From an uncultured Bacillota bacterium (GTDB taxonomy: Bacteria; Bacillota; JAAYKD01), in NCBI GenBank assembly GCA_937897315.1, contig CALCNS010000025.1:1-14398 (forward strand): a DNA stretch of 14,398 nt, in the 5' to 3' direction. Shown piece by piece: positions 1,322 through 14,398 of this stretch. The number at the start of each line of letters is the position of its first letter. The stretch's first letter is position 1. The position numbers were made by a program, and so were the translations under genes. A model generated the notes under the pieces. It saw nothing but the letters and a program-made list of their open reading frames with translations. It had not been told where the DNA came from and did no database searches.

Positions 1322-1542
1322 CACCCCGCTCGGAATAAAAAACTTGTGGTGATTAAGCAAAACTCCTAATTGTTAGTCATAATTTGAATTTGATAGCGTA
1401 CAATCAGCATAAGAACACTATAATAAGTATGTTGTATAGGGGCAAACTTTAAGCCCTGCTACCGGGAATTTTTCTGGTTTCAGGTTTCAATTTTAGGAAA
1501 TATTTTATTGAGATTAACAACGATTTATTTCGTTAGAAGGCA

Positions 1543-2751
1543 GTGGTTAATTTGCAAAATTATTCAGTTAAGAAAATGGAAGACAAGGATTATTTTCAAG
1601 TTTTGAATATCTGGTCGGGCTCGTATCAATTCTCTGTTTCGAACGAAATGCTTAAAGAACCGAAGGAATTGAATATAATTGTACTAAAAGATGAAAGTGA
1701 AAGGATTTTGTCATGTGCAGATTTTGTAACAACGAGAGTTATATTTTGTGATCGTGAAATAGAAGTAGTGAAGATTTATCGGGTAGCTACGCTGTTGTCG
1801 GAAAGAAGGAAAGGCTACTCCAAAAGACTCATTATTGATTCCCTGAGAAATGAAAGGTCAAATGGAAGAGCAATAGCATGGTTAAAAACTAAATCGGACG
1901 AGATATATAGCGGGATAGGCTTCGTTTCTGGATTAGTATGTAGTAAAGCCCGTATAAACATAAGTGATTTAGTATCTATTAAACCCCAAGGTAAAATTCT
2001 TCAATTGGAACCATGGTTAATTGGTTCAATTCAAAATATATGTGAGGGTTTGGAAAGCACGTACAGTGCTTTTGCAAAAACATACAATTTCATGGCAATT
2101 AGAGAAAAAGAATACTGGGAAAAACTCATTAATAACAAAAATTTCTTTAAGTATCATCGTTTATTTGTATTGTATGATGATAAAGATAAAATTCAGGGTT
2201 ACCTAATTACTTCAATATCAAGTGAAAAGTTGTTGAGTATTAGGGAGTTTTGTTGGAACGGAATAAATGCCTTTCAAAGTGCTCTAGGGTTTTTTCGATC
2301 ACTAATTGGACAGTTTAACCAGATTGAGATCAATTTACCGTTTGAAGTTCCTATGCACCACTCGCTTGTCAATATTGATAGTAATCAAATCTCACTAAAA
2401 AGTTTAGGTCTCGTTCGAATTTTAAACGTTGAGGTAATACTGACTAGTATTCATTTATCCAGTGACTTTGCAAGAACCGTTTTCTATGTATATGATGATT
2501 TATTTGATGAGAATACTGGTATTTATACTATAGAACGAGATTCTGCTCAGAGGGCAAGCGTCATGTTCACTCACAGTAAGACTGAACTCAAGAATAAGTT
2601 GTCTGTAAAGTTATTGACAAAGCTAGTTATATTTGGCTATAATCCACTTTTTTTTAGTGATACGATTTTAGACTCCGAATTTGAAAAGCAATTGAAGGAG
2701 TTATTTCTTCCAAGACCTACTTTCTACATAGATGGGGTTGAAAACATTTGA
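1543..2751 (+). CDS. Eis-like GNAT-family N-acetyltransferase (402 aa)
   Basis: The protein resembles the Eis family, which has two GNAT-fold domains and an SCP2-like C-terminal domain and acetylates lysine or aminoglycoside amines with acetyl-CoA. The first domain shows VATLLSERRKGYSKRL (about 81-96), matching the acetyl-CoA-binding V-x-x-x-x-x-R-x-x-G-x-x motif. It also has IYSGIGF (121-127), in the place of the Eis YGRFGY segment that carries the catalytic Tyr. A degenerate second GNAT part follows (about 155-300), then an SCP2-like end (about 305-402). The GTG at 1543 is only 2 bases after AGAAGG. TTG at 1552 is better spaced at 11 bases and in frame; ATG at 1576 would cut into the first strand. 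The gene sits 72 bases before a candidate RiPP precursor, so it may acetylate that peptide or protect the host. The family is likely; the substrate is inference. Confidence 0.75.
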   Translation: MVNLQNYSVKKMEDKDYFQVLNIWSGSYQFSVSNEMLKEPKELNIIVLKDESERILSCADFVTTRVIFCDREIEVVKIYRVATLLSERRKGYSKRLIIDSLRNERSNGRAIAWLKTKSDEIYSGIGFVSGLVCSKARINISDLVSIKPQGKILQLEPWLIGSIQNICEGLESTYSAFAKTYNFMAIREKEYWEKLINNKNFFKYHRLFVLYDDKDKIQGYLITSISSEKLLSIREFCWNGINAFQSALGFFRSLIGQFNQIEINLPFEVPMHHSLVNIDSNQISLKSLGLVRILNVEVILTSIHLSSDFARTVFYVYDDLFDENTGIYTIERDSAQRASVMFTHSKTELKNKLSVKLLTKLVIFGYNPLFFSDTILDSEFEKQLKELFLPRPTFYIDGVENI

Positions 2752-2757
2752 CTGTTG

Positions 2758-2796
2758 TATATCAATTTGGTAGTTTGGTATATCAAATTTGATATA
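2758..2796 (+). promoter_or_regulatory. Candidate operator: 18-bp perfect palindrome plus an upstream repeat
   Basis: TATATCAAATTTGATATA at 2779-2796 is a perfect palindrome. Its left half, TATATCAA, recurs at 2758-2765, exactly 21 bp (two helical turns) upstream. The pair fills the gap between the acetyltransferase stop and the ribosome binding site of the peptide gene. This is the usual place for a regulator controlling a precursor peptide. I see no strong promoter with it; a weak TATAAA lies at 2793-2798. The site could instead form a weak hairpin in the transcript. Confidence 0.45.
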
Positions 2797-2823
2797 AATG
2801 ATACTATTGAGGAGGTGAAAAAT

Positions 2824-2943
2824 ATGGTGTTGTCTTCAGGAGCAAAACTTACCGCAGATGCGAGAGTGAAGTTCGTTACTTGCTGTTGCCCAGATTACAA
2901 TTATCCGAGTTTTAATGTTGATTCAACAAAGACACAAGAGTAA
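2824..2943 (+). CDS. Candidate RiPP precursor peptide, 39 aa, with Cys-Cys-Cys run
   Basis: The peptide starts at ATG 2824 behind a very strong GAGGAGGTG ribosome binding site (2809-2817), which argues against the longer in-frame TTG start at 2755. Residues 1-19 (MVLSSGAKLTADARVKFVT) look like a short, charged leader. Residues 20-30 (CCCPDYNYPSF) form a compact Cys/aromatic core, and NVDSTKTQE follows. There is no signal peptide, membrane segment or double-Gly cleavage site. It lies between an acetyltransferase and a SPASM-type radical SAM enzyme with a dedicated ABC exporter, the classic setting of a sactipeptide, ranthipeptide or cyclophane-type precursor. A hairpin directly follows the stop. 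I do not recognise the peptide family. Precursor status is a strong inference from context; the chemistry is unknown. Confidence 0.75.
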   Translation: MVLSSGAKLTADARVKFVTCCCPDYNYPSFNVDSTKTQE

Positions 2944-2949
2944 TTTCGG

Positions 2950-2978
2950 AACAGGGCTACTTTTTTTGTAGCCCTGTT
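2950..2978 (+). terminator. Perfect 11-bp hairpin directly after the precursor gene
   Basis: AACAGGGCTAC (2950-2960) pairs perfectly with GTAGCCCTGTT (2968-2978) around a loop of seven Ts, six bases after the precursor stop codon. The bases after the stem (TGCTAATCTTTG) make only a poor U tract, so termination may be partial. Such hairpins between a precursor and its enzymes commonly keep precursor transcript in excess of enzyme transcript, by partial termination or by protecting the 3' end. Confidence 0.7.
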
Positions 2979-3568
2979 TGCTAATCTTTGTACAAGATAC
3001 TACTTTAAGAAAGTGTCTTAATAATAGAAATGGATTAGCTATCAATGTTATCTGCAGCTGTGGAGATACCGAGAAATGAATCTGACAGAATATTCTGGCA
3101 GTTACCCTTCGGGCCGGAGTTTGGTTCCAATCAATCCGGTGTTTCGTTCCAAGGAGTCAGGGACCATGTCCCAGTATTTCCCGAAAGTTTCAGATGCATT
3201 TATATTTGAAGAGAACAAGACCTCTATGTATAAAGAGATTGTACGTAGAACAAATGTAATACATCGAAAGTTAATATTCCGTTGAAAAAAACCAACCGGA
3301 ACGTTAGCCCTGACAGGATGGATATTTTGAACGGAATACTCATCTGATTTCAGACTTCTAACTGGCTTCAGATTTGAGTAAAATGTGACTATTACGCAAA
3401 TCCATTTAAAGTCAACAATTGGTGGGGTTAAGTCAATTACATTCTTAGAAGCATGGGCATCTTCTTCTATTTCTCTTAGGTAGAGATGGAATCATAGAGT
3501 TTAGAGATCTTTGCTTTTTAAAATATTTAGATTGGGTTTACAAACTAATAGTAAAGAGAGGTGCTTTT
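2979..3568. other. 590-base spacer with an unassigned 3076-3285 open frame
   Basis: Between the precursor hairpin and the maturase there is no confident gene. A 69-codon plus-strand frame at 3076-3285 (MNLTEYSGSYPSGRS...) has a weak start. The overlapping minus frame is open through a YWDMVPDSLERNTG segment. The core, about 3100-3200, is clearly more GC-rich than its surroundings, which suggests a fragment of something inserted, such as a degraded transposon. A near-perfect 20-bp palindrome centred on CAGAATATTCTG (3086-3097) and the inverted pair GGGAC/GTCCC around 3160-3172 lie inside. I see no consensus promoter for the maturase. Confidence 0.35.
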
Positions 3569-4870
3569 ATGAAGCTAACAAAATATTGCTCAGCAACGAA
3601 GCTGAATGATTTTCCAGAGCTCACGGTTCTTTTGACATTTTTGGAGCAAGGTATGATGATTCTTCCAACTTCCAAAATTGATAAGTTATTCAGCGGTGAA
3701 TTAAATGTACTTACCGAATATGAACAGAAAAAATTACAGGAAATCGGAGCTTTAATTCCAGACAGTTTGGATGAGGTTAGCAAAATTGCTTATTACTATA
3801 GTAAGATTCCTTATTCCAATTCTATTGGAAAATTGACAGTCTTAACTACCTACGACTGCAATTTGAAATGTTATTACTGTTTACAAAACCCGCTTACATT
3901 GATACACACGTTTGACAACCAATATGATTCTTTTTTAGTCTGGCTATTGAGGTGGATAACGGATAATTGTCTTTCTGAGGTTAATATTGAATTCATTGGT
4001 GGAGAACCTTTATTGAATGTAGATTGTATTAGAAAAGTATGTTCGACAGTAATTAAGACCGGAGTAAAATTCAAAGCAAGTCTTATAACCAATGGGCTTT
4101 TGCTTACCGACGAGATAATTAAAGAATTGGCTATTTTAGGCCTGCGAAGTGTACAATTAACCTTTGATGGGCCTAAGGAGCTACATGATAAAGTAAAGTT
4201 TTGTAGTGAATTCAGTTGTTATGATCACAATAAGGAGCTAATAAAGAAGCTAAAAGATAGAAATATCAAGGTGGATATAAGGATAAATTTCTTAAAAGGG
4301 GATTATGCAACGGCTATAGCAACAGCCAAATCCTTAGTTGATATCGAAGAAAAAAGAGATATTACAATGTACTTTTCAGAAATATTCGGACTAGATACAA
4401 GTAGCTGTGCGTATAATTATGAAAGCGAAGTAGAAATCAAGAAAAAATCCGAGTTACTTAAACTTGTAAAGTCTCTAGGGTTTTCGGTACCGTATCCTTT
4501 AGGATCTATCTTATGCAAAGCGGAGTCTGATGTGAATTTTGTTATAACTCCAAATTTAGATATATATAAGTGCTATTTACTCGTTGGAAACGAATCCCAA
4601 AAAATCGGAAGCATTGTTGATGGCCGACTAGATGTTATGAACTTCTCTCCTCTTATTAGAACTCTTAGGACAGAGTGTGAAGAATGCTACTTATTACCAA
4701 TATGTAAAGGGGGATGTAGAGCCAATAATATTCTAAACTCTACAACAAATCAGAGAGCGCTTTGTGGAAAGAGCATAATCGAAACAGTTCTCGCGGAATT
4801 TTTGCCAACCTTTTACGAATCTAACTTTTCTGCTCAGATAAAGAAATTTTATGAGAATTTGGCAAAATGA
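3569..4870 (+). CDS. Radical SAM/SPASM peptide maturase (433 aa)
   Basis: The SAM cluster motif is C97-x3-C101-x2-C104 (CNLKCYYC), followed by GGEP at 144-147 (SAM binding). The C-terminal SPASM domain shows seven ordered cysteines: C316, C335, C370, C373, C379, C383 and C399. Their C-x2-C-x5-C-x3-C spacing is typical for two auxiliary 4Fe-4S clusters. Residues 1-85 precede the barrel, and the segment around ALIPDSLDEV is typical of peptide-modifying members. This part may bind the leader peptide. Enzymes of this architecture make Cys-thioether or C-C bonds in RiPP precursors, here most likely the CCC peptide encoded upstream. The start at 3569 has a GAGAGGTG site with good spacing. The stop is 10 bases before the next gene, so coupling to the transporter is likely. 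The class is firm; the bond formed is unknown. Confidence 0.9.
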   Translation: MKLTKYCSATKLNDFPELTVLLTFLEQGMMILPTSKIDKLFSGELNVLTEYEQKKLQEIGALIPDSLDEVSKIAYYYSKIPYSNSIGKLTVLTTYDCNLKCYYCLQNPLTLIHTFDNQYDSFLVWLLRWITDNCLSEVNIEFIGGEPLLNVDCIRKVCSTVIKTGVKFKASLITNGLLLTDEIIKELAILGLRSVQLTFDGPKELHDKVKFCSEFSCYDHNKELIKKLKDRNIKVDIRINFLKGDYATAIATAKSLVDIEEKRDITMYFSEIFGLDTSSCAYNYESEVEIKKKSELLKLVKSLGFSVPYPLGSILCKAESDVNFVITPNLDIYKCYLLVGNESQKIGSIVDGRLDVMNFSPLIRTLRTECEECYLLPICKGGCRANNILNSTTNQRALCGKSIIETVLAEFLPTFYESNFSAQIKKFYENLAK

Positions 4871-4880
4871 GGTGATATAT

Positions 4881-6371
4881 TTGTTTTTTCAACTTGGAGC
4901 AAAGAATGCGTGGCGAAACTTAGCAAGAAGTCTTTTGGCAATCATTTCGATGGGATTTGCTTCTGCTTTTCTGGCCTATGTATTAACGCTCGGACGCGGA
5001 TATAGTCAAGGCGCCGGCCAGCCATTGAGACAAATGCTGGGGGGCGAAATTAGTGTGTACCAACAAAAGCTGGTGAGCGAAATTCCTAGTAATCCTACGG
5101 ATTTCGAATTTTCTATTGAGACTCTGAACCCATTTACAGACCTAAGCTTCTTTTATACTGGTTATGAGCAAAAAGGGTATATGACCGGTTCAAGCATGGA
5201 CGATGAAAATTGGCTACATTTAGAGCAGCAGCTCCTTGATCAACCTAGTATCTCTGGAGTTTATCCTGTTTATCGATTACCTGCTTTTGAGCAATTCATT
5301 GAAGGAAGCGGGGAATCTTCTATTGTTTCAAAGGTTTCACTCTATGGTAAAGACCTGAATCAGGAGAATATGGCTGAAAGGTCTCTCGCATCCTATGTTG
5401 ACTCTGGAAGATGGTTTGAAGACTCTGATGATAATAGACATGTTGCTGTTATTTCTACGAACCAAGTTTTACCACCCGGAGTTGCTGGCCATAAAGTTGG
5501 GGATATGGTGCAAATCGAAATACCTCGAATTGTCGAGACGGTCAAAGGGAAGGAAATCGATTGGCTAAATCCGATAACTGTTGACTTCGAAATCATCGGT
5601 TCAGTGGCGCTTCATACCAGGGATGTAGATTTTTTTGTTGTGGGAGAATTGAAAACCGAACAGATTCACGGATATCATAATGACATCTACATTCCTTTAT
5701 CTACTTGGAAGGAAATTTGGGGAACGGTTGCCCTTGAACAAACGTACTTACCTGGAGAGTATATTTTGCAGGTTGACACTCTGACATATCTTGAAGATAT
5801 TGTTTACACATTGCGTGAGCAGTATCCCAATATTCAAGTCAATAGTATCCCTGTGCAAAATGAGTGGATGCTAAATCAATTCCTCATAGAACCGGAGCAA
5901 GCTTTTAGCAGAGTACCTGCAGCTCGCTTAAGTGCACTTAAGGAAACCAAACAGGCCAACACCCAAGGGGTTATAATAGCAGACTTAAGGGTGCCCATTG
6001 TAACACTTGTCTTATTTAATGCGGCCTTGTTACTTACAGCGAATATCTTAATTCTGATTATTGAACGAAAACGAGAAATGGCTGTTTTGAAATCCATTGG
6101 AGCTAAAAAGGCAGATATTGTCACAATGATCATGTCTGAAGCGGTTTTGATTACATTTCTCGGAGCAAGCAGTGGGTATCTCATTGTGAGTATACCAAAC
6201 ATTTTGAACCAATTCAGCAATTCGGTAAGTGGTCTTCAAATTGTATGGGGTGTTTTAGTAAACAGCGCCTATGTCTTAACAATTACATGCGGTTGTGCAG
6301 CGCTCTTTTCATTCGTACCAGGGCTGCAGATTGCCTCTAAATCGGTTATGGAGGTATTGCGCGATGAATAA
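4881..6371 (+). CDS. FtsX/MacB-type ABC transporter permease 1 (496 aa)
   Basis: This is a membrane subunit of a MacB/LolCE-type exporter. One N-terminal membrane helix (about 18-37) is followed by a large extracytoplasmic domain (about 38-370). Three more helices follow (about 371-394, 414-438 and 455-480). ERKREMAVLKSIGA (395-408) is the hallmark FtsX coupling segment that contacts the ATPase. I chose TTG 4881 because GGTGA (4871-4875) sits 5 bases before it and the protein then opens with FFQLGAKNAWRNLARS, the usual FtsX start. An in-frame ATG at 4851 would overlap the maturase by 20 bases and lacks such a site. It forms a pair with the next permease and the ATPase. The likely role is moving the modified peptide across or out of the membrane. 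Confidence 0.85.
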   Translation: MFFQLGAKNAWRNLARSLLAIISMGFASAFLAYVLTLGRGYSQGAGQPLRQMLGGEISVYQQKLVSEIPSNPTDFEFSIETLNPFTDLSFFYTGYEQKGYMTGSSMDDENWLHLEQQLLDQPSISGVYPVYRLPAFEQFIEGSGESSIVSKVSLYGKDLNQENMAERSLASYVDSGRWFEDSDDNRHVAVISTNQVLPPGVAGHKVGDMVQIEIPRIVETVKGKEIDWLNPITVDFEIIGSVALHTRDVDFFVVGELKTEQIHGYHNDIYIPLSTWKEIWGTVALEQTYLPGEYILQVDTLTYLEDIVYTLREQYPNIQVNSIPVQNEWMLNQFLIEPEQAFSRVPAARLSALKETKQANTQGVIIADLRVPIVTLVLFNAALLLTANILILIIERKREMAVLKSIGAKKADIVTMIMSEAVLITFLGASSGYLIVSIPNILNQFSNSVSGLQIVWGVLVNSAYVLTITCGCAALFSFVPGLQIASKSVMEVLRDE

Positions 6372-7971
6372 AAGTAGCATTAATAACCTGCTTGCAATTC
6401 TGCAGTTGGTACAGAAAAATATCAAGCGTTGGTGGGGTAGATTATCCGTAATTGTAATTCTAGTGATGTTGACAACTACCTTGAGCATTTTCTATCATAG
6501 TATGTTGATCAGTGAACAAACGAAAGCAACAATAGAAATGCAGAGATTGGAACTCCCATATGACTTATTGGTGAAATTGCCGAAAGGAACACCACCGTTG
6601 CTGCTGAATCAACTACCAAAACCTCTTGATTCTACGCTCATGCGAAAAACAGTACGATCTTGGGAGCAAAATCAATGGAAGGAAATCACATATGAAGTAC
6701 CGAGTGTACCTCTGAGTTTTACTTATGCTGAATCTGCTGCAGGCGGTGTAGTGGAAACAAAACAGGGCAGCTGGGAGGTATTGGGGATTCAAGCAGATTC
6801 CTTGTTTTACCAAGATCTTAAAATAGAACTAGAAGGAGCTTGGCTAAGTTCACCCGGAGATATAATCCTTCCTCAGGAGCTTGCGCAGGTAAATCAATTT
6901 AGTTTAGGGGAAAATATCAAATTAAGAGCAACGACAGAAACAGGGAATCGAATTCTTCGTGAATATCGCGTTGTAGGTGTTTTTGCCAATAAATACGACT
7001 TAGAGCAGCCATTAATCTTGATTCAAGATGCAATGACCTTGTTTTCTTTGAAAGTTCCTAACCGTCAGCTTCTTCAAAACAACGAGCTTCTTACTCATGC
7101 TACTGGATTAGAGCAAAATATGAGTCGGGTTTATCCGGGGGCTTCGTTTCTGTACGAGTGGATTGGGCAAAATCGAATGTTCCAATTAACAAATGCAGTC
7201 CAATCTCCATCCTCGTGGGTTCTCTTGCTGATCTATTTATTCATGAGTTTTGGTGTGTTGACCTTATCTCTCATCACATTTTTGGAACGGAGAAAGGAAT
7301 TGGCAATACTAAAATCCATAGGGGCAAGGAACTCTATGATTGTAATTCTTTTAGTCATGGAATATGCCATAGCTGCCTTTGTTGGGTTAGCAAGCAGTTA
7401 TATTGCTTTGCGAATTCTAATTCCTCAATTTAGTTGGTATCAGAATCTACCCACTGGTACCTTGACAAAACTTAGTATTCAGAATATGTTGGTCACCGTC
7501 TTCGCCTTGACGTTAAGTTTGCTATACCCCATACTTTTAGCCAAATTAGCCACGGTCAACCAGTTGATTTATAAGAGGAAGATTCCATTAATAACAGAAC
7601 GCTGGGACCATATTGCAAAACCAACCTATGAGCATCTTCTAATTGAGAAAACAAAAAATGTTAGTGTTCTTCAATTGGAAAATGAAGATGGAAAGCTTTT
7701 CGGTAGCTTCTTACGGAAGCCGGGTGAGCATGCAAAAAAAGGGGAAGTGCTGTTCATACAAGAAAAACTTTCGGGTTTTGTTTATAGAGAATGGATTTCT
7801 CCTTGTGATGGAGTCATAGAATACGATCCATATTCAGGTATACTGACCATCGTTCCTGATGATCCTGAGGCGGAGCGATATCATTATCCGGAACGGATTT
7901 TAGAAGAGTTTGAAAGGCGTAAAGCAGGAACAATAAAGAAAGAAGTGGTGCAAAATGAAGACCATTCTTGA
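6364..7971 (+). CDS. FtsX/MacB-type permease 2 with fused C-terminal lipoyl-like domain (535 aa)
   Basis: Starts at ATG 6364, overlapping the previous gene by 8 bases, with GGAGGT at 6350-6355. Layout: one membrane helix (about 27-48), an extracytoplasmic domain (about 50-280), then three helices (about 284-307, 325-348 and 374-398). ERRKELAILKSIGA (308-321) is the FtsX signature. After the last helix, where most members stop, the protein continues for about 135 residues. Residues about 430-500 resemble a barrel-sandwich (biotinyl/lipoyl-like) fold, with LRKPGEHAKKGEVLFIQ and SPCDGVIEYDPYSGILTIVPDD matching the two halves seen in HlyD/MacA adaptors. No attachment lysine is evident. By FtsX topology this part should be cytoplasmic. 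The fusion is unusual, and I infer it contacts the cargo peptide or the maturase. Confidence 0.82.
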   Translation: MNKSSINNLLAILQLVQKNIKRWWGRLSVIVILVMLTTTLSIFYHSMLISEQTKATIEMQRLELPYDLLVKLPKGTPPLLLNQLPKPLDSTLMRKTVRSWEQNQWKEITYEVPSVPLSFTYAESAAGGVVETKQGSWEVLGIQADSLFYQDLKIELEGAWLSSPGDIILPQELAQVNQFSLGENIKLRATTETGNRILREYRVVGVFANKYDLEQPLILIQDAMTLFSLKVPNRQLLQNNELLTHATGLEQNMSRVYPGASFLYEWIGQNRMFQLTNAVQSPSSWVLLLIYLFMSFGVLTLSLITFLERRKELAILKSIGARNSMIVILLVMEYAIAAFVGLASSYIALRILIPQFSWYQNLPTGTLTKLSIQNMLVTVFALTLSLLYPILLAKLATVNQLIYKRKIPLITERWDHIAKPTYEHLLIEKTKNVSVLQLENEDGKLFGSFLRKPGEHAKKGEVLFIQEKLSGFVYREWISPCDGVIEYDPYSGILTIVPDDPEAERYHYPERILEEFERRKAGTIKKEVVQNEDHS

Positions 7972-8641
7972 AACAATCAACTTAAACAAAGCTTTTTATT
8001 TAGGGGAAGCTGTGTATGCAGTCAATAATGTGAATCTGCAAATAATGGCTGGAGAAATTGCGATGATCGTGGGTCCTTCGGGAAGTGGCAAGAGTACTCT
8101 CTTAAGCTTACTAGGAGGATTAGATCGCCCAATAAGCGGAGACATTAAGATCAATGGAAAATCAATTGTAACGCTCTCAGAAGATCAACTAGCCGTTATG
8201 CGCAGAAAAAGCATTGGATATGTGTTTCAGTTTTTTAATCTGATTCCACATTTGTCGGCATTGGAAAATGTGGAGTTGCCGATGAAAATTACTGGTGCTA
8301 GTAGAAAAGAAGCCCGTGAACGTGCAGAATACTTGCTGAATGAGGTAGGACTATCCCCGAGGGCACACCATAGACCAGATCAGCTCTCCGGCGGAGAACA
8401 GCAGAGGGTTGCGATTGCAAGGTCATTAATCAATAAACCAGCTGTCGTTTTAGCCGATGAACCCACCGGTAATCTCGACAGCAAAACCCGAGATATTGTC
8501 ATATCGTTGTTCCAGAAGTTTCGAGAAATCGAAAACCAAACCTTTGTCATTATCACCCATGATACGGGGTTAACCCAGTACGCTCAGCGAGTCGTTCGCT
8601 TGCGCGACGGGAAAGTTGAATCGGTTGTGGTTGCTTCGTAA
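7955..8641 (+). CDS. LolD/MacB-type ABC transporter ATPase (228 aa)
   Basis: Complete nucleotide-binding subunit of the exporter. It has a Walker A GPSGSGKST (40-48), a Q-loop at FQFFNLIPHLSALENVELPM (91-110), a signature LSGGEQQRVAIARS (144-157), a Walker B VVLADEPTGNLD (164-175) and an H-loop ITHD (200-203). The FQ-x-FNL-IP-LSALENVELP wording and the length are characteristic of the LolD/MacB/FtsE-like subfamily that partners FtsX-type permeases. The gene overlaps permease 2 by 17 bases, so the three transporter genes are translationally coupled and end the operon. ATP hydrolysis would drive conformational export of the peptide rather than transport by a classical C39-peptidase exporter. 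No peptidase domain is fused. Confidence 0.95.
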   Translation: MKTILETINLNKAFYLGEAVYAVNNVNLQIMAGEIAMIVGPSGSGKSTLLSLLGGLDRPISGDIKINGKSIVTLSEDQLAVMRRKSIGYVFQFFNLIPHLSALENVELPMKITGASRKEARERAEYLLNEVGLSPRAHHRPDQLSGGEQQRVAIARSLINKPAVVLADEPTGNLDSKTRDIVISLFQKFREIENQTFVIITHDTGLTQYAQRVVRLRDGKVESVVVAS

Positions 8642-9040: not shown

Positions 9041-9116
9041 TGGTAGCCCCTAGGGGCTTCGAACCCCTGTTACCGCCGTGAGAGGGCAGCGTCCTAGACC
9101 ACTAGACGAAGAGGCC
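9041..9116 (-). tRNA. tRNA-Glu (anticodon CUC)
   Basis: The minus strand folds as a 76-base cloverleaf. The acceptor is GGCCTCT/AGGGGCT with a G1-U72 wobble. The T arm is AGGGG-TTCGAAG-CCCCT and the anticodon stem CTGCC/GGCGG. The loop CTCTCAC gives anticodon CTC (9080-9082). The 3' CCA is encoded (9041-9043). It is the minor Glu isoacceptor, reading GAG, and is co-transcribed with tRNA-Gln just upstream. Confidence 0.95.
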
Positions 9117-9125
9117 ATGTATGCC

Positions 9126-9199
9126 TGGTTGGGGAAGAAGGATTTGAACCCTCACAAACAGATCCAGAGTCTGCTGTCCTACCGTTAGACGATTCCCCA
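9126..9199 (-). tRNA. tRNA-Gln (anticodon CUG)
   Basis: A 74-base minus-strand cloverleaf with acceptor TGGGGAA/TTCCCCA, discriminator A and encoded CCA (9126-9128). The anticodon stem is GCAGA/TCTGT with loop CTCTGGA, giving anticodon CTG (9165-9167). The T1-A72 first pair is typical of tRNA-Gln. It is the CAG-reading isoacceptor and first gene of the two-tRNA transcript; 9 bases separate it from tRNA-Glu. Confidence 0.95.
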
Positions 9200-11278: not shown

Positions 11279-12169
11279 ATGAGAAAACTGAAGAAAATCT
11301 ACATTGAGATCACCAATATTTGTAATCTTGCTTGTGAGTTTTGCCCTCCAACAAAACGCAAAGCGAAGTTCATGGAATACGAAACTTTTGTTAAGATATT
11401 GGATCAAATCAAGCAGCATACCGATTATGTGTATTTGCATGTGAAGGGGGAGCCCCTTATGCATCCGGATTTGAGTCGATTCTTAGATTTGTGCAAGGTA
11501 AAAGGGTTTCATGTGAACATCACGACCAATGGCACCCTCATTGCACAAGTTGGGGAGATGCTTTTAAGCAAATCGGCGGTGCGGCAAATCAATTTTTCTC
11601 TGCATAGCGTCGAGAGCACATCCAGCAAGCAGAACCGAGAAGAGTATGTTAAGCAAATCACTACGTTTACCAAAGAAGCGATGCAAAAGACCTCTATGCA
11701 GGTTTCTTTGCGGTTATGGAATCTTCAGGAGAACGAAGAAGGGAAATTGGAGCATGGTGTCAACCGCGAACTGCTGGAACTCATAGCGAAAGAATTTTCT
11801 TGGGCAGGGGTAGAGCACATAGAAGCCAATGGATTAAAGGGGATTGCCTTAGCCGAGAGGGTTTATTTAAATCAAGATGTGCAGTTTGCTTGGCCCGATC
11901 TATCTTTGGAAGAGGAAGACAAAACAGGCTTTTGCTACGGGTTGCGTCACCAGGCGGCAATATTGGTCGATGGTACGGTGCTACCTTGTTGCTTAGATTC
12001 GGACGGGGTCATTGCTTTAGGAAATATTCATAAGAACACGTTTTCGGAGATTATGGAGAGCGAAAGAGCCCTGCAGTTGGTGGAGGGCTTTTCCAAAAGG
12101 CAAGCCGTGGAGGAACTTTGCCGAAAATGTGGGTACAGAAAAAGGTTTGACAACCCATATTCTTCCTGA
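11279..12169 (+). CDS. Radical SAM protein with SPASM-like C-terminus (296 aa)
   Basis: The radical SAM motif is C15-x3-C19-x2-C22 (CNLACEFC), followed by KGEP (56-59). C-terminal cysteines C219, C237, C238, C281 and C284 occur in a context typical of a short SPASM/twitch domain, with ILVDGTVLPCCLDSDG and LGNI before the final CRKC. The protein is short for a peptide maturase, lacks an N-terminal extension and starts directly with the barrel. The target may be a protein, a peptide or a small molecule; I cannot assign it. It is the last gene of the GNAT/cysteine-synthase-like/radical SAM unit. Its last codons overlap the -35 element of the promoter for the tyrS leader, so readthrough from this unit could also feed tyrS. 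Confidence 0.85.
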   Translation: MRKLKKIYIEITNICNLACEFCPPTKRKAKFMEYETFVKILDQIKQHTDYVYLHVKGEPLMHPDLSRFLDLCKVKGFHVNITTNGTLIAQVGEMLLSKSAVRQINFSLHSVESTSSKQNREEYVKQITTFTKEAMQKTSMQVSLRLWNLQENEEGKLEHGVNRELLELIAKEFSWAGVEHIEANGLKGIALAERVYLNQDVQFAWPDLSLEEEDKTGFCYGLRHQAAILVDGTVLPCCLDSDGVIALGNIHKNTFSEIMESERALQLVEGFSKRQAVEELCRKCGYRKRFDNPYSS

Positions 12170-12175
12170 TATAGT
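12147..12175 (+). promoter_or_regulatory. Sigma-A promoter of the tyrS leader, TTGACA-N17-TATAGT
   Basis: A perfect -35 TTGACA (12147-12152), an ideal 17-base spacer and a -10 TATAGT (12170-12175) predict a start near 12182. That is about 22 bases before the leader-peptide ATG. A second -10-like TATAAT is at 12179-12184 without a matching -35. The -35 overlaps the end of the radical SAM gene. Confidence 0.75.
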
Positions 12176-12203
12176 AGGTATAATATTTCGAGGGGGTAGC
12201 GAT

Positions 12204-12293
12204 ATGAGCAACTGCGGTTCTAACGTCACTGTGAACTTCAGCAAGCCGGTTTCTTATTATTACGGAAACAGGCTTGAGTTGCTATGCCCGTAA
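12204..12293 (+). CDS. Tyr-rich leader peptide of tyrS (29 aa)
   Basis: A short open frame starts at ATG 12204 behind a strong GAGGGGG site (12190-12196). It encodes MSNCGSNVTVNF, then SKPVSYYYGNRLELLCP. Three Tyr codons in a row (TAT TAT TAC, 12255-12263) lie upstream of a tyrosyl-tRNA synthetase gene. A 10-base antiterminator arm (12273-12282) begins 9 bases after the last of them, and an intrinsic terminator lies beyond the stop. This is the classical design in which a ribosome stalled on Tyr codons for lack of charged tRNA-Tyr permits readthrough into tyrS. The peptide itself probably has no function. The alternative reading is a small Cys-containing RiPP precursor for the adjacent radical SAM enzyme; the terminator and antiterminator fit makes this less likely. 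Confidence 0.75.
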   Translation: MSNCGSNVTVNFSKPVSYYYGNRLELLCP

Positions 12294-12349
12294 ACAAAGT
12301 TATAGGCAGTTTGGCGGCTCAAGGCAATGCGCTTTGGGCTGCTTTTTTT
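12273..12349 (+). promoter_or_regulatory. Tyr-responsive transcription attenuator (antiterminator and terminator)
   Basis: Terminator: GCGGCTCAA (12314-12322) pairs with TTGGGCTGC (12334-12342) and is followed by seven Ts (12343-12349). Antiterminator: CTTGAGTTGC (12273-12282) can pair over all 10 bases with GCGGCTCAAG (12314-12323), with two G-U pairs, using up the terminator's left arm. A further TGCC/GGCA pair (12285-12288 with 12304-12307) can stack inside. A ribosome stalled at 12255-12263 leaves the antiterminator arm free. One reaching the stop at 12291 covers it and lets the terminator form. No T-box consensus is present. Confidence 0.75.
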
Positions 12350-12371
12350 ATTGGGAAAGGGGGAAAATCAA

Positions 12372-13538
12372 ATGCAAGAGACGCTATTTGAAGTCATTCG
12401 ACGCCATGCGGTGGAGATGTACTCAGAAGAAGGGTTGCAAAATCGTTTTGAGGCAGGGAAGAAGTTGAGAATCAAGTTGGGGGCCGATCCATCTCGTCCC
12501 GATTTGCACTTGGGGCATACCGTGCCTTTGCGCATGTTGCGGCGTATGCAAGATGCGGGGCATGAAATCATCTTTGTGATTGGAGATTTTACCGGCATGA
12601 TAGGCGACCCCACCGGCAAAAGCAAAACGCGTGTGCCGCTCACCTTTGAGCAAACACGTCGCAATGGACAGAGTTACTTTGAGCAGGTCACCAAAATTCT
12701 CGACCCGGCTAAGACGCAAATCACTTACAACTCCGAGTGGCTGAGTGCCTTGAACTTTGCCGATGTGCTGTCATTAACGGCGAAATACACCTTGGCACGT
12801 ATTTTGGAGCGCGATGACTTCGCAGGGAGATTTGCCAATAACCAGGCGATTGGGTTGCACGAGTTATTGTACCCTCTCATGCAAGGGTACGATTCGGTAG
12901 CTTTGGAGGCCGATATCGAAGTAGGTGGCACGGATCAGACGTTTAATTTGCTGGTAGGAAGAGCGCTGCAGAAAGATTATGGGCAGGAACCGCAAGAGGT
13001 GATTACATTTCCTCTGCTGCCTGGGCTCGATGGCAAAGAGAAAATGAGCAAATCTCTCGACAATTACATTGGCATTGACGAACCGGCTGCAACCATGTTT
13101 GAAAAATGCATGCGCGTGCCCGATGAAGTGTTGCCCGAATACTTCCGATTGACGACCGATTTACCGTTGGAACAGGTTGTAGAAGTGATGAATTGCGATA
13201 TGCACGAAGCTCACCGCGTATATGCCTTAGAAATTGTTCGATTGTATCATAGTGAGAAGGCAGCGAAAGAGGCAGAGCGGCACTATGACGATGTAGCGAA
13301 GGGAACGGTGCCAAATGAAATACCCGAACTGCTCTTTGTGCAAGGGCAAGAGGTACCGCTCATTGAGTTGCTGAAGCAGGCCGGATTTGCTGCATCGAAC
13401 TCCGAAGCGCGCCGACTTATTGAAGGACGTGGCATACAACTCAACGGGGAAGTCGTCACCGACATTCACCTTGTCATCTCTCAACCAGCCATAGTTAAAC
13501 GCGGCAAAAACCGTTTCCTCCGCCTCCGCTTCTCCTAA
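12372..13538 (+). CDS. tyrS: Tyrosyl-tRNA synthetase, type 2 (388 aa)
   Basis: A class I synthetase that charges tRNA-Tyr with tyrosine using ATP in the cytoplasm. It has the HIGH motif as HLGH (46-49) inside GADPSRPDLHLGHTVPLR and a GDFTGMIGDPTGKSKTR block (71-87). GGTDQ occurs at 185-189, KMSKS at 224-228, and a C-terminal S4 RNA-binding domain at about 325-388 (SEARRLIEGRGIQLNG). The sequence style is the second TyrRS group (like Bacillus subtilis TyrZ) rather than the TyrS group. ATG 12372 follows a GGGGG-type site at 12359-12363; an upstream in-frame start at 12327 would lie inside the terminator hairpin. The gene is preceded by a leader peptide with three Tyr codons and an attenuator, so expression should rise when charged tRNA-Tyr falls. 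The stop codon abuts a 35-base palindrome. Confidence 0.96.
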   Translation: MQETLFEVIRRHAVEMYSEEGLQNRFEAGKKLRIKLGADPSRPDLHLGHTVPLRMLRRMQDAGHEIIFVIGDFTGMIGDPTGKSKTRVPLTFEQTRRNGQSYFEQVTKILDPAKTQITYNSEWLSALNFADVLSLTAKYTLARILERDDFAGRFANNQAIGLHELLYPLMQGYDSVALEADIEVGGTDQTFNLLVGRALQKDYGQEPQEVITFPLLPGLDGKEKMSKSLDNYIGIDEPAATMFEKCMRVPDEVLPEYFRLTTDLPLEQVVEVMNCDMHEAHRVYALEIVRLYHSEKAAKEAERHYDDVAKGTVPNEIPELLFVQGQEVPLIELLKQAGFAASNSEARRLIEGRGIQLNGEVVTDIHLVISQPAIVKRGKNRFLRLRFS

Positions 13539-13573
13539 TTTACCACATAGGGGACAGTCCCCTATGTGGTAAA
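13539..13573. repeat. 35-base perfect palindrome with GGGGACAGTCCCC core
   Basis: TTTACCACATAGGGGAC (13539-13555), a single A, then its exact complement (13557-13573) begin on the base after the tyrS stop. The form resembles REP-like dispersed palindromes common in Clostridia, often mobilised by REP-associated transposases. It would also make a stable hairpin at the 3' end of the tyrS transcript, though no U tract follows. Confidence 0.85.
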
Positions 13574-13655
13574 TATTCACCAGTGAGGGGACTGTCCCCT
13601 AAGTGGTAAGTATTCGCCTGTGAGGGGACGTCTCGCGTTTTCACAGCAAAAACGC
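13574..13655. repeat. Further, decaying copies of the GGGGAC repeat
   Basis: A second imperfect palindrome spans 13579-13607 (ACCAGTGAGGGGAC against GTCCCCTAAGTGGT, two mismatches). Its left part recurs 37 bases later: TATTCACCAGTGAGGGGAC at 13574-13592 and TATTCGCCTGTGAGGGGAC at 13611-13629. The third copy lacks the right arm. A small hairpin, GCGTTTT/AAAACGC (13635-13641 with 13649-13655), follows. The cluster looks like successive insertions or duplications of one REP-like unit. Confidence 0.75.
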
Positions 13656-13743
13656 TTACCCTACCCTGTAAAAAACAAAGGAAGTTGGCGAAAAAGGGAG
13701 AATATAGCGGTAGGGATGAATACATCGAAAGAAGGTTTTGGTC

Positions 13744-14190
13744 ATGACAGCAAAGCCACTGAAAACGGTTGTTTTGCCCATTCTTTGCATCACCTTGTTC
13801 GGGGTTCTTATGCTCGCCGCCAGTTTTATGCTCTACTACGGCTTTTATTTGTTCGTAGAACGCTTTTTCTATGCCGGACAAACCCAAAATGTGCGCATGG
13901 ATTCGCTCCGCCGCCTTTTTGCGGTGCTCTATGGCTGCCTTTACCTGCTACTTCATCGTATTAAAAAGTGGGAACTCGCCAAAGCTACACTCATGGTCGG
14001 CCCCTTAGGCACCATTATTGTGACGATTGTCCTAAGTTATTACACACGGATGCCTTTGGCGCTGCTCTACTCGGGAATTTTTCTCGCTCTAGTCATCGCA
14101 TTCTTGTACCTATTTAAAAAACCGTGGTACTATTACTATGCCATCGTAGTGACCTTGGTGCCCGCACTTTGGTATGCTTGGCCCCGGTAA
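13744..14190 (+). CDS. Small integral membrane protein, four helices (148 aa)
   Basis: I do not recognise the family. The protein has four hydrophobic segments, at about residues 7-35, 58-69 (short), 79-97 and 103-120 with a further one at 128-143, separated by short charged loops. It has no soluble domain, so it should sit entirely in the cytoplasmic membrane. ATG 13744 has AAGAAGG (13729-13735) at 8 bases; the in-frame TTG at 13738 is too close to that site. It is a single gene between the repeats after tyrS and a strong terminator, so it is probably its own transcription unit. No catalytic motif is seen. Confidence 0.7.
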   Translation: MTAKPLKTVVLPILCITLFGVLMLAASFMLYYGFYLFVERFFYAGQTQNVRMDSLRRLFAVLYGCLYLLLHRIKKWELAKATLMVGPLGTIIVTIVLSYYTRMPLALLYSGIFLALVIAFLYLFKKPWYYYYAIVVTLVPALWYAWPR

Positions 14191-14205
14191 TCTTTCATCT
14201 ACCCA

Positions 14206-14242
14206 GGGTCCGTGAAATTTTTTTTCGCGGACCCCATTTTTT
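14206..14242 (+). terminator. Intrinsic terminator after the membrane protein gene
   Basis: GGGTCCGTG (14206-14214) pairs with CGCGGACCC (14226-14234) with one G-U pair, followed by CATTTTTT ending at 14242. It separates the membrane protein gene from the sigma-I-like gene. Confidence 0.88.
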
Positions 14243-14253
14243 CTAAGCCCTGC

Positions 14254-14270
14254 TCCGTAATATATACGGA
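14254..14270. promoter_or_regulatory. Small inverted repeat before the sigma-I-like gene
   Basis: TCCGTA (14254-14259) and TACGGA (14265-14270) flank ATATA, 24 bases before the ATG at 14294. It could be an operator or part of an alternative-sigma promoter. The evidence is positional only. Confidence 0.3.
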
Positions 14271-14293
14271 ACGTCAAAGAAGGGAGGCCCCTC

Positions 14294-14398
14294 ATGCGAG
14301 AGCTCGACCACAAAGCCAAACGCGCCGCGAATGACCCCGAATTGCTCGAAGCTTTCATTGTAGAGTCGGAACCCTTCATTATTAAATCTGCATCCAAG
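14294..14398 (+). CDS. Start of a sigma-I-like RNA polymerase sigma factor gene (partial)
   Basis: The first 35 codons are visible before the window ends: MRELDHKAKRAANDPELLEA and then FIVESEPFIIKSASK. The pattern of a short charged start followed by E-x-x-PFI-x-K-x-A-S matches the opening of the sigma-70 region 2 helix in SigI-type factors, which respond to heat or, in clostridia, to envelope or polysaccharide signals. A strong AGGGAGG site (14281-14287) supports the start. With only 35 residues the family is probable, not certain. A sporulation or general sigma-70-family protein would be the alternative. Confidence 0.55.
   Translation, partial: MRELDHKAKRAANDPELLEAFIVESEPFIIKSASK

Follow-up and report, generated by a model that had tools for sequence, protein, structure and literature searches.

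The 14,398-nucleotide stretch of DNA analyzed here (hereafter, the window), which comes from contig CALCNS010000025.1 of an uncultured bacterium of the phylum Bacillota, contains a gene for tyrosyl-tRNA synthetase (TyrS), the tyrS gene, which is very probably under the control of a tyrosine-specific, ribosome-mediated transcription attenuator of the trp/phe/his type. The sequence and its computational analysis reveal a translated-looking frame with clustered Tyr codons upstream of the gene, an arm (arm 2) that can pair with either arm 1 or arm 3, and a terminator formed by arms 3 and 4. The frame, the Tyr cluster, arm 2, and the terminator are conserved across eight leaders, that of the window and those of seven relatives, and it may be inferred from this arrangement that the gene responds to tyrosine. 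A preliminary description of the window had read the leader as a sensor of Tyr-tRNA that acts through a leader peptide, and this reading is supported here by both the comparison with the relatives and the folding of the RNA with the ribosome at successive positions.

In the proposed mechanism, an ample supply of Tyr-tRNA(Tyr) would allow the ribosome to pass the Tyr codons and reach the stop codon, covering arm 2, which would leave arm 3 free to form the terminator, and transcription would stop near position 12349. Under a shortage of charged Tyr-tRNA, the ribosome would stall on the Tyr codons, opening the 1:2 hairpin and exposing arm 2. The exposed arm would then capture arm 3 before the synthesis of arm 4, so that no terminator would form and tyrS would be transcribed.

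Anatomy and conservation of the tyrS leader

All the elements of the leader lie on the forward strand. Transcription is predicted to start from a sigma-70-type promoter (12147..12175) that matches the consensus at 11 of 12 bases, with a -35 TTGACA (12147-12152), a 17-base spacer, and a -10 TATAGT (12170-12175) preceded by TG. This promoter lies within the 3'-terminal part of the radical SAM gene upstream. A promoter scan of positions 11800-14398 with a threshold of 9, at which shuffled sequences yield 2.7 sites, found one other promoter-like site, with a score of 9 versus 11 for the leader promoter. A second TATAAT (12179-12184) has, by eye, no -35-like hexamer at the proper distance. A G-rich ribosome-binding site, GAGGGGGT (12190..12197), is read from the sequence 6 bases 5' of the ATG of the leader peptide frame (12204..12293), which has 29 sense codons and translates as MSNCGSNVTVNFSKPVSYYYGNRLELLCP, followed by the stop codon; the seven relatives have Tyr-rich frames in the same place. 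The regulated gene (12372..13538) begins with an ATG at 12372 and encodes a protein of 388 amino acids with matches to PF00579 (8.2e-75), the S4 domain PF01479, and PF22421 (SYY C-terminal domain) in Pfam.

The regulatory codons are TAT TAT TAC (Tyr-Tyr-Tyr; 12255..12263), identified by translation and folding. They are flanked by arm 1 (12242..12254), which pairs with positions 12264-12276 through 12 pairs, one of them G-U, with one mismatch, so that the 9-base loop of the hairpin is exactly TATTATTAC, the three Tyr codons. Arm 2 (12264..12288) has two partners: 12264-12276 pairs with arm 1, and the antiterminator is formed by 12273-12283, with an extension to 12288, together with arm 3 and the bases immediately 5' of that arm; within this pairing, 12273-12282 is complementary to 12314-12323. 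Arm 3 (12313..12325), recovered by the terminator scan and the pair lists, is the left arm of the terminator and is also used by the antiterminator. Arm 4 (12331-12343) and the seven-T tract (12343-12349) complete the intrinsic terminator (12331..12349), identified by the terminator scan and by covariation over the eight sequences, in which the stem 12313-12325/12331-12343 leads into the seven Ts. The last Tyr codon is separated from the complementary part of arm 2 (12273) by 9 bases, and the end of this part (12282) from the stop codon by 8.

The preliminary description had located the promoter, the ribosome-binding site, the 29-codon frame, the complementary arm, and the terminator correctly, and the two distances that it gave are also right, but it had overlooked arm 1. 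With this arm, the window leader has the four classical arms, that is, a 1:2 hairpin around the regulatory codons, a 2:3 antiterminator, and a 3:4 terminator. Both of the segments that form the alternative structures are more stable than expected from their composition, with -20.9 kcal/mol (z -3.7) for the terminator segment (12305-12351) and -26.2 kcal/mol (z -4.15) for the antiterminator segment (12264-12326), and none of 200 shuffles was as good in either case. Folding of the whole leader without a ribosome gives the arm-1/arm-2 hairpin together with 3:4, which is the terminated state.

Three of the relatives came from a scan of genome contigs with the TyrS protein, which kept 80 loci; 13 of the upstream regions were inspected by eye, and all 80 were filtered both for Tyr-rich frames and for such frames ahead of a run of Ts. 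The three loci, in Clostridiales bacterium Rs511_bin13 (L001), Acetivibrio sp. MSJd-27 (L002), and Christensenella sp. UBA7707 (L011), have a terminator, an arm similar to that of the window, and a leader frame rich in Tyr. Searches of whole genomes (labeled G) that belong to the order of G003 or to the class of G001 added four attenuator loci (L089, L090, L093, and L096). The parts stand before tyrS in the same order in all seven, and each retains Tyr codons, arm 2, and the terminator, which answers the comparison proposed in the preliminary description. The eight leader peptides have 25-37 residues after Met and include 3-7 Tyr, with 4-7 Tyr codons in each of the seven relatives, and Tyr is the most enriched residue in every leader except that of the window. 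All eight have a leader frame with a start codon, that of L001 being without a ribosome-binding site obvious by eye, and an intrinsic terminator lies between leader and tyrS in all of them (-14.2 to -28.5 kcal/mol). A 1:2 hairpin with the Tyr codons as its loop is clear in the window and L093, and the corresponding region forms hairpins of another form that involve arm 2 in L001, L002, L011, and L096; folding of L089 and L090 found no equivalent hairpin.

Pairing was counted on an alignment of the eight leaders (A4), in which the structures were taken from the window, which favors them over versions slid along the alignment. Of the 99 terminator cells, 86.9% are paired, versus 30-61% in the slid versions, and 9 of the 13 pairs are changed on both sides among the eight sequences, a covariation score reached by none of 500 shuffles. 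The antiterminator is paired in 88.0% of its 83 cells, versus 31-58% when slid by 1-3 columns.

The filter for stop-to-stop Tyr-rich frames followed by a T-run recovered 16 frames in 11 of the 80 loci, L001, L002, and L011 among them. Those of L003, L006, and L010 were taken as chance, given that these loci have T-boxes, and those of L050, L064, L066, and L074 were also taken as chance, as judged from the listed frames alone; inspection of the sequence upstream of L051 revealed no leader. A covariance model of the leader (R1) gives 64.9-89.3 bits for its eight members, which score high by construction, and 19.7 for the next best match in 85 sources. Under stricter filters, the same model found a strong score in 398 genomes of the phylum only for the training member G001, and seven further matches (27-33.5 bits), inspected by eye, are without a Tyr-rich leader. 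A TyrS search of viral contigs yielded three loci (L141-L143; 44-48% identity), of which L141 has a T-box motif, the upstream region of L142 has neither a T-box motif nor a Tyr-rich frame, and the sequence of L143 starts at the gene. Plasmids yielded three TyrS records, with 48-51% identity.

Folding of the leader ahead of the ribosome

The effect of the position of the ribosome was modeled by placing each codon in the A site and folding the RNA ahead of the ribosome up to the terminator loop, with the downstream edge set at the codon start +12, which is an assumed value. The main Tyr codons were defined as those within eight codons of the last Tyr, which leaves out the early Tyr codons and one in L001 that lies beyond arm 2. 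In this footprint model, arm 3 is sequestered when a main Tyr codon is in the A site (means of 0.73-0.94) and mostly free once the stop codon has been reached (0.00-0.25 sequestered), in all eight leaders. Sequestration first drops below half at 1-5 codons past the last main Tyr. As controls, the codons that follow the Tyr run were recoded synonymously at random 200 times, and the sequence leading up to arm 3 was dinucleotide-shuffled 200 times. The observed difference between the Tyr and stop positions was reached in at most eight recodings and four shuffles per 200 in seven of the eight leaders, in which the Tyr-stalled value alone was reached by up to 12 shuffles.

A test of the switch by folding at equilibrium, with the terminator complete, was set aside because it fails to separate the two states in four of the eight leaders, whereas the cotranscriptional version separates them. 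At equilibrium, the terminator dips to 0.06-0.5 at its lowest, at or near the Tyr codons, in the window, L002, L011, and L096.

A number of observations weigh against the attenuator. In the case of the window, three Tyr in the 28 residues after Met are not significant on their own (P 0.07), so the argument from Tyr enrichment is carried by the seven relatives. The covariation of the antiterminator is not clearly above that of shuffled alignments, which reach its score in 64 cases of 500 and its paired cells in 70; little variation is expected in a sequence obliged to pair in two alternative ways, but these counts are no proof of 2:3 covariation. The switching of L090 does not exceed the controls (71 of 200 recodings and 28 of 200 shuffles). 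In four leaders, the sequestered fraction climbs again after the Tyr run, before the stop codon is reached (0.66 in L001, 0.53 in L093, 0.51 in L002, and 0.47 in L096), and, for the Tyr codons outside the main run, it is 0.61 at the L001 codon beyond arm 2 and 0.26 at codon 3 of L089. The terminator is favored at every position of the ribosome under equilibrium folding in L001, L093, L089, and L090, so that the model requires the antiterminator to form first, during transcription; dependence on the order of synthesis also holds in the classical attenuators. Arm 3 is also often sequestered when no ribosome is present (0.24-0.96), and arm 1 therefore preempts arm 2 only partly.

The distribution of the attenuator among the TyrS genes is likewise imperfect. 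Of the 25 rows in the clade that holds the window, eight have the attenuator, eight a T-box, and nine neither that was recognized, and these nine speak against a universal association, although they are compatible with loss or replacement and need not be a refutation. Three rows of the main attenuator clade (L158, L092, and L094) do not have this attenuator. Relatives with a terminator and no Tyr codons, which the preliminary description had regarded as telling against its own reading, come down to one candidate, L159 (tyrS at 1501-2646, minus strand), the sister of the attenuator-bearing L089 and L090, which has a hairpin and Ts upstream of the gene and no Tyr leader. The terminator scan does not list this hairpin, and no Rfam T-box was found upstream of L159.

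T-boxes, the TyrS tree, and alternative explanations

The tyrS gene is a classic T-box gene in the Bacillota. The signal of its T-box is uncharged tRNA-Tyr, which the T-box senses directly, without translation, and a 1992 paper by Henkin reportedly dealt with the tyrS gene of Bacillus subtilis. The T-box (RF00230) is present in sister TyrS genes, and was not found at the eight leaders, including that of the window, for which the preliminary description had counted a T-box match as contrary evidence. No Rfam 15 family matches these leaders at E-values up to 0.05, RF00230 included, and none of the five Rfam matches in the window at E-values up to 1 lies inside the leader. The same kind of search found T-boxes at eight sister genes (L003, L004, L006, L007, L008, L010, L097, and L140). 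In addition, the seven searchable genomes with the attenuator have 5-12 T-box matches each at other sites (E-values up to 0.001), at least one of them above the Rfam cut-off in each genome, and none shares a contig with the attenuated tyrS.

In the TyrS tree, six attenuator rows fall in a clade of nine (support 92/80), with L092, L094, and L158 as the other three, and L089 and L090 are placed elsewhere with L159 (support 94/89). The trees require four and five label changes for the origin of the attenuator. A single clade of the ten rows with an attenuator, an intron, or a Tyr-rich frame is not rejected, however (approximately unbiased test, p-AU 0.21), and the analysis does not distinguish between gain by an ancestor with a T-box, loss, and transfer. 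The closest relative in the comparison, L092 (69-70% identity to the window TyrS), has a frame (2692-2766, minus strand) of 24 codons, five of them Tyr, which ends 6 bases before the tyrS start with no terminator between, and is a possible translational attenuator. In L094, whose genome falls within the attenuator clade, tyrS is directly preceded by the end of a group II intron (RF00029, 47.5 bits; 2681-2761, minus strand), and the contig ends approximately 1.3 kb upstream of the gene.

A second TyrS, with 29-33% identity, is present in all nine of the genomes searched that carry either the attenuated gene (seven genomes) or the tyrS of L092 or L094 (G164 and G354), although in G003 and G195 it was found only as fragments where contigs end; a single TyrS is present in the T-box relative G004. 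No Rfam T-box was found at any of the nine second TyrS loci (L085-L087 and L152-L157), and the seven upstream regions inspected (L085, L086, and L152-L156) contain no Tyr leader with a terminator. In L152, L155, and L156, the short stretches between stop codons that contain Tyr were attributed to chance. As the second genes have no Rfam T-box and, at the seven loci inspected, no such attenuator, the attenuated tyrS may be the inducible member of the pair.

Some of these observations may be explained in other ways. The sequence R-L-G/E-L-L after the Tyr run might arrest the ribosome as a nascent peptide, answering a small molecule such as free tyrosine, with the arms acting as in an attenuator. 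This motif, or the near form R-P-G-L-L, occurs in five of the eight peptides (the window, L002, L011, L093, and L096), but the conserved residues are encoded by arm 2, and synonymous recoding there weakens the pairing in seven of the eight leaders, so that RNA pairing can explain the conservation of the peptide. The peptides of L089, L090, and L001 differ, and their arm 3 still pairs with upstream RNA, and the number and spacing of the Tyr codons vary as those of regulatory codons would, all of which makes such an arrest unlikely. A riboswitch that binds tRNA or a metabolite, whether a T-box or another kind, would be the usual control of tyrS in the phylum and is found at eight sister genes; given the lack of Rfam matches described above, and the size of the leader (approximately 170 bases), which the coding frame and the four arms largely occupy, its probability here is minimal.

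A plain intrinsic terminator with partial readthrough would require the Tyr-rich frame and the complementary arm to be products of chance. The unremarkable Tyr count of the window and the hairpin of L159 fit this account, which is nevertheless very improbable in view of the frame, Tyr cluster, arm 2, and terminator common to the eight leaders, and of the position-dependent switching above the controls in seven of them. Stalling in the leader might instead govern mainly the access of ribosomes to the tyrS ribosome-binding site, as the frame of L092 would suggest for that locus, but a terminator with a T-tract stands between leader and gene in the window and seven relatives, and the ribosome-binding site of the window tyrS lies outside the switching arms. 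Translational control is thus very improbable at these eight genes, and attenuation of transcription by the Tyr codons is the preferred explanation.

The closest TyrS among the genomes searched is that of G164 (70% identity), and a protein search with the window TyrS lists one entry at 99% and eleven at 82-84% identity, from the sources jgi, lgn, and ena. Directly 3' of tyrS (13539-13630) there are palindromic repeats based on GGGGACAGTCCCC/GGGGACTGTCCCC, at which a weak Rfam microRNA match scores below the gathering score. Upstream, the gene whose final bases carry the tyrS promoter encodes a radical SAM/SPASM protein (11279-12169), and is preceded by a gene for a pyridoxal phosphate-dependent enzyme (PF00291), cysteine-synthase-like by eye. 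Positions 1543-8641 include, in a row, a double-GNAT protein, a 62-residue frame with Cys-Cys-Cys, a radical SAM protein, two FtsX permeases, and an ABC ATPase, which together look like a peptide-modification and export cluster. The genes for tRNA-Glu (CTC) and tRNA-Gln (CTG) are found at 9041-9199 on the minus strand, and the start of the window truncates a gene for a large serine recombinase (PF07508, PF13408), of which the 3' part remains at 3-821.

Known attenuators and the significance of the tyrS leader

The window leader shares a leader peptide with cognate codons and an alternating antiterminator and terminator with the pheST and pheA leaders of Escherichia coli and with the trp and his leaders, among which pheST is also a synthetase operon (trp, pheA, and pheST attenuation is summarized in PMC11802643, and his in PMC9413887). 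These classical attenuators respond to Phe, Trp, and His, whereas the amino acid here is Tyr, the gene is tyrS, and the genomes are of the Clostridia type. In Corynebacterium glutamicum, the aroR leader (Phe-Tyr-Phe) before aroF answers to limitation of Phe, not Tyr (PMC11802643); this is also a Tyr-containing leader peptide with transcription attenuation, but it has one Tyr codon and precedes a biosynthetic gene.

Leader peptides with cognate codons also precede synthetase genes in other groups, as in the case of trpS and leuS in Streptomyces (PMC1262725) and the uORFC-8-2 motif at cysS in the Rhodobacterales (PMC8632094), although these involve Trp, Leu, and Cys in Actinobacteria and Alphaproteobacteria. 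A 2005 paper stated that no synthetase gene of the Firmicutes was under classical attenuation (PMC1262725). His leader peptides have been reported upstream of hisS/hisZ paralogues in bacilli (PMC2965389), and His attenuators upstream of the his operons in some Firmicutes (PMC9413887). These share with the window leader-peptide control of a Gram-positive synthetase gene or pathway where a T-box might be expected, with histidine there and tyrosine here. The tyrS gene is absent from the main text of PMC2965389, and its sole mention in PMC9413887 concerns an Enterococcus gene cluster, with no leader peptide.

No Tyr-specific leader peptide at tyrS was found in searches of an open-access library, outside which most subscription papers lie, so this absence is no proof. 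The preliminary description had presented the system as one with no known counterpart for tyrS in this group, and, in this respect, the Tyr specificity, the gene, and the lineage do look new. The mechanism itself is known, and the replacement of T-boxes by leader peptides at a synthetase gene of the Firmicutes had already been reported for hisS in bacilli (PMC2965389), which limits the novelty to these three aspects.

A wider proposal, judged somewhat less probable than its opposite, is that this clade of TyrS genes, found in genomes that have a second TyrS and keep T-boxes elsewhere, has exchanged the tyrS T-box for a Tyr leader peptide, either more than once or with repeated loss, and that the latter was turned, in L092, into a terminator-less Tyr-rich frame that acts on translation. 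If so, sensors of several kinds for the same signal would have replaced one another at a single gene within one clade. If the Tyr attenuator is real, the sister genes with T-boxes and the T-boxes of the same genomes would allow two ways of sensing the same signal at the same gene to be compared as they occur in nature. Tyrosine would then join the amino acids with a leader-peptide attenuator at their own synthetase, and leader peptides at Gram-positive synthetase genes would not be confined to hisS.

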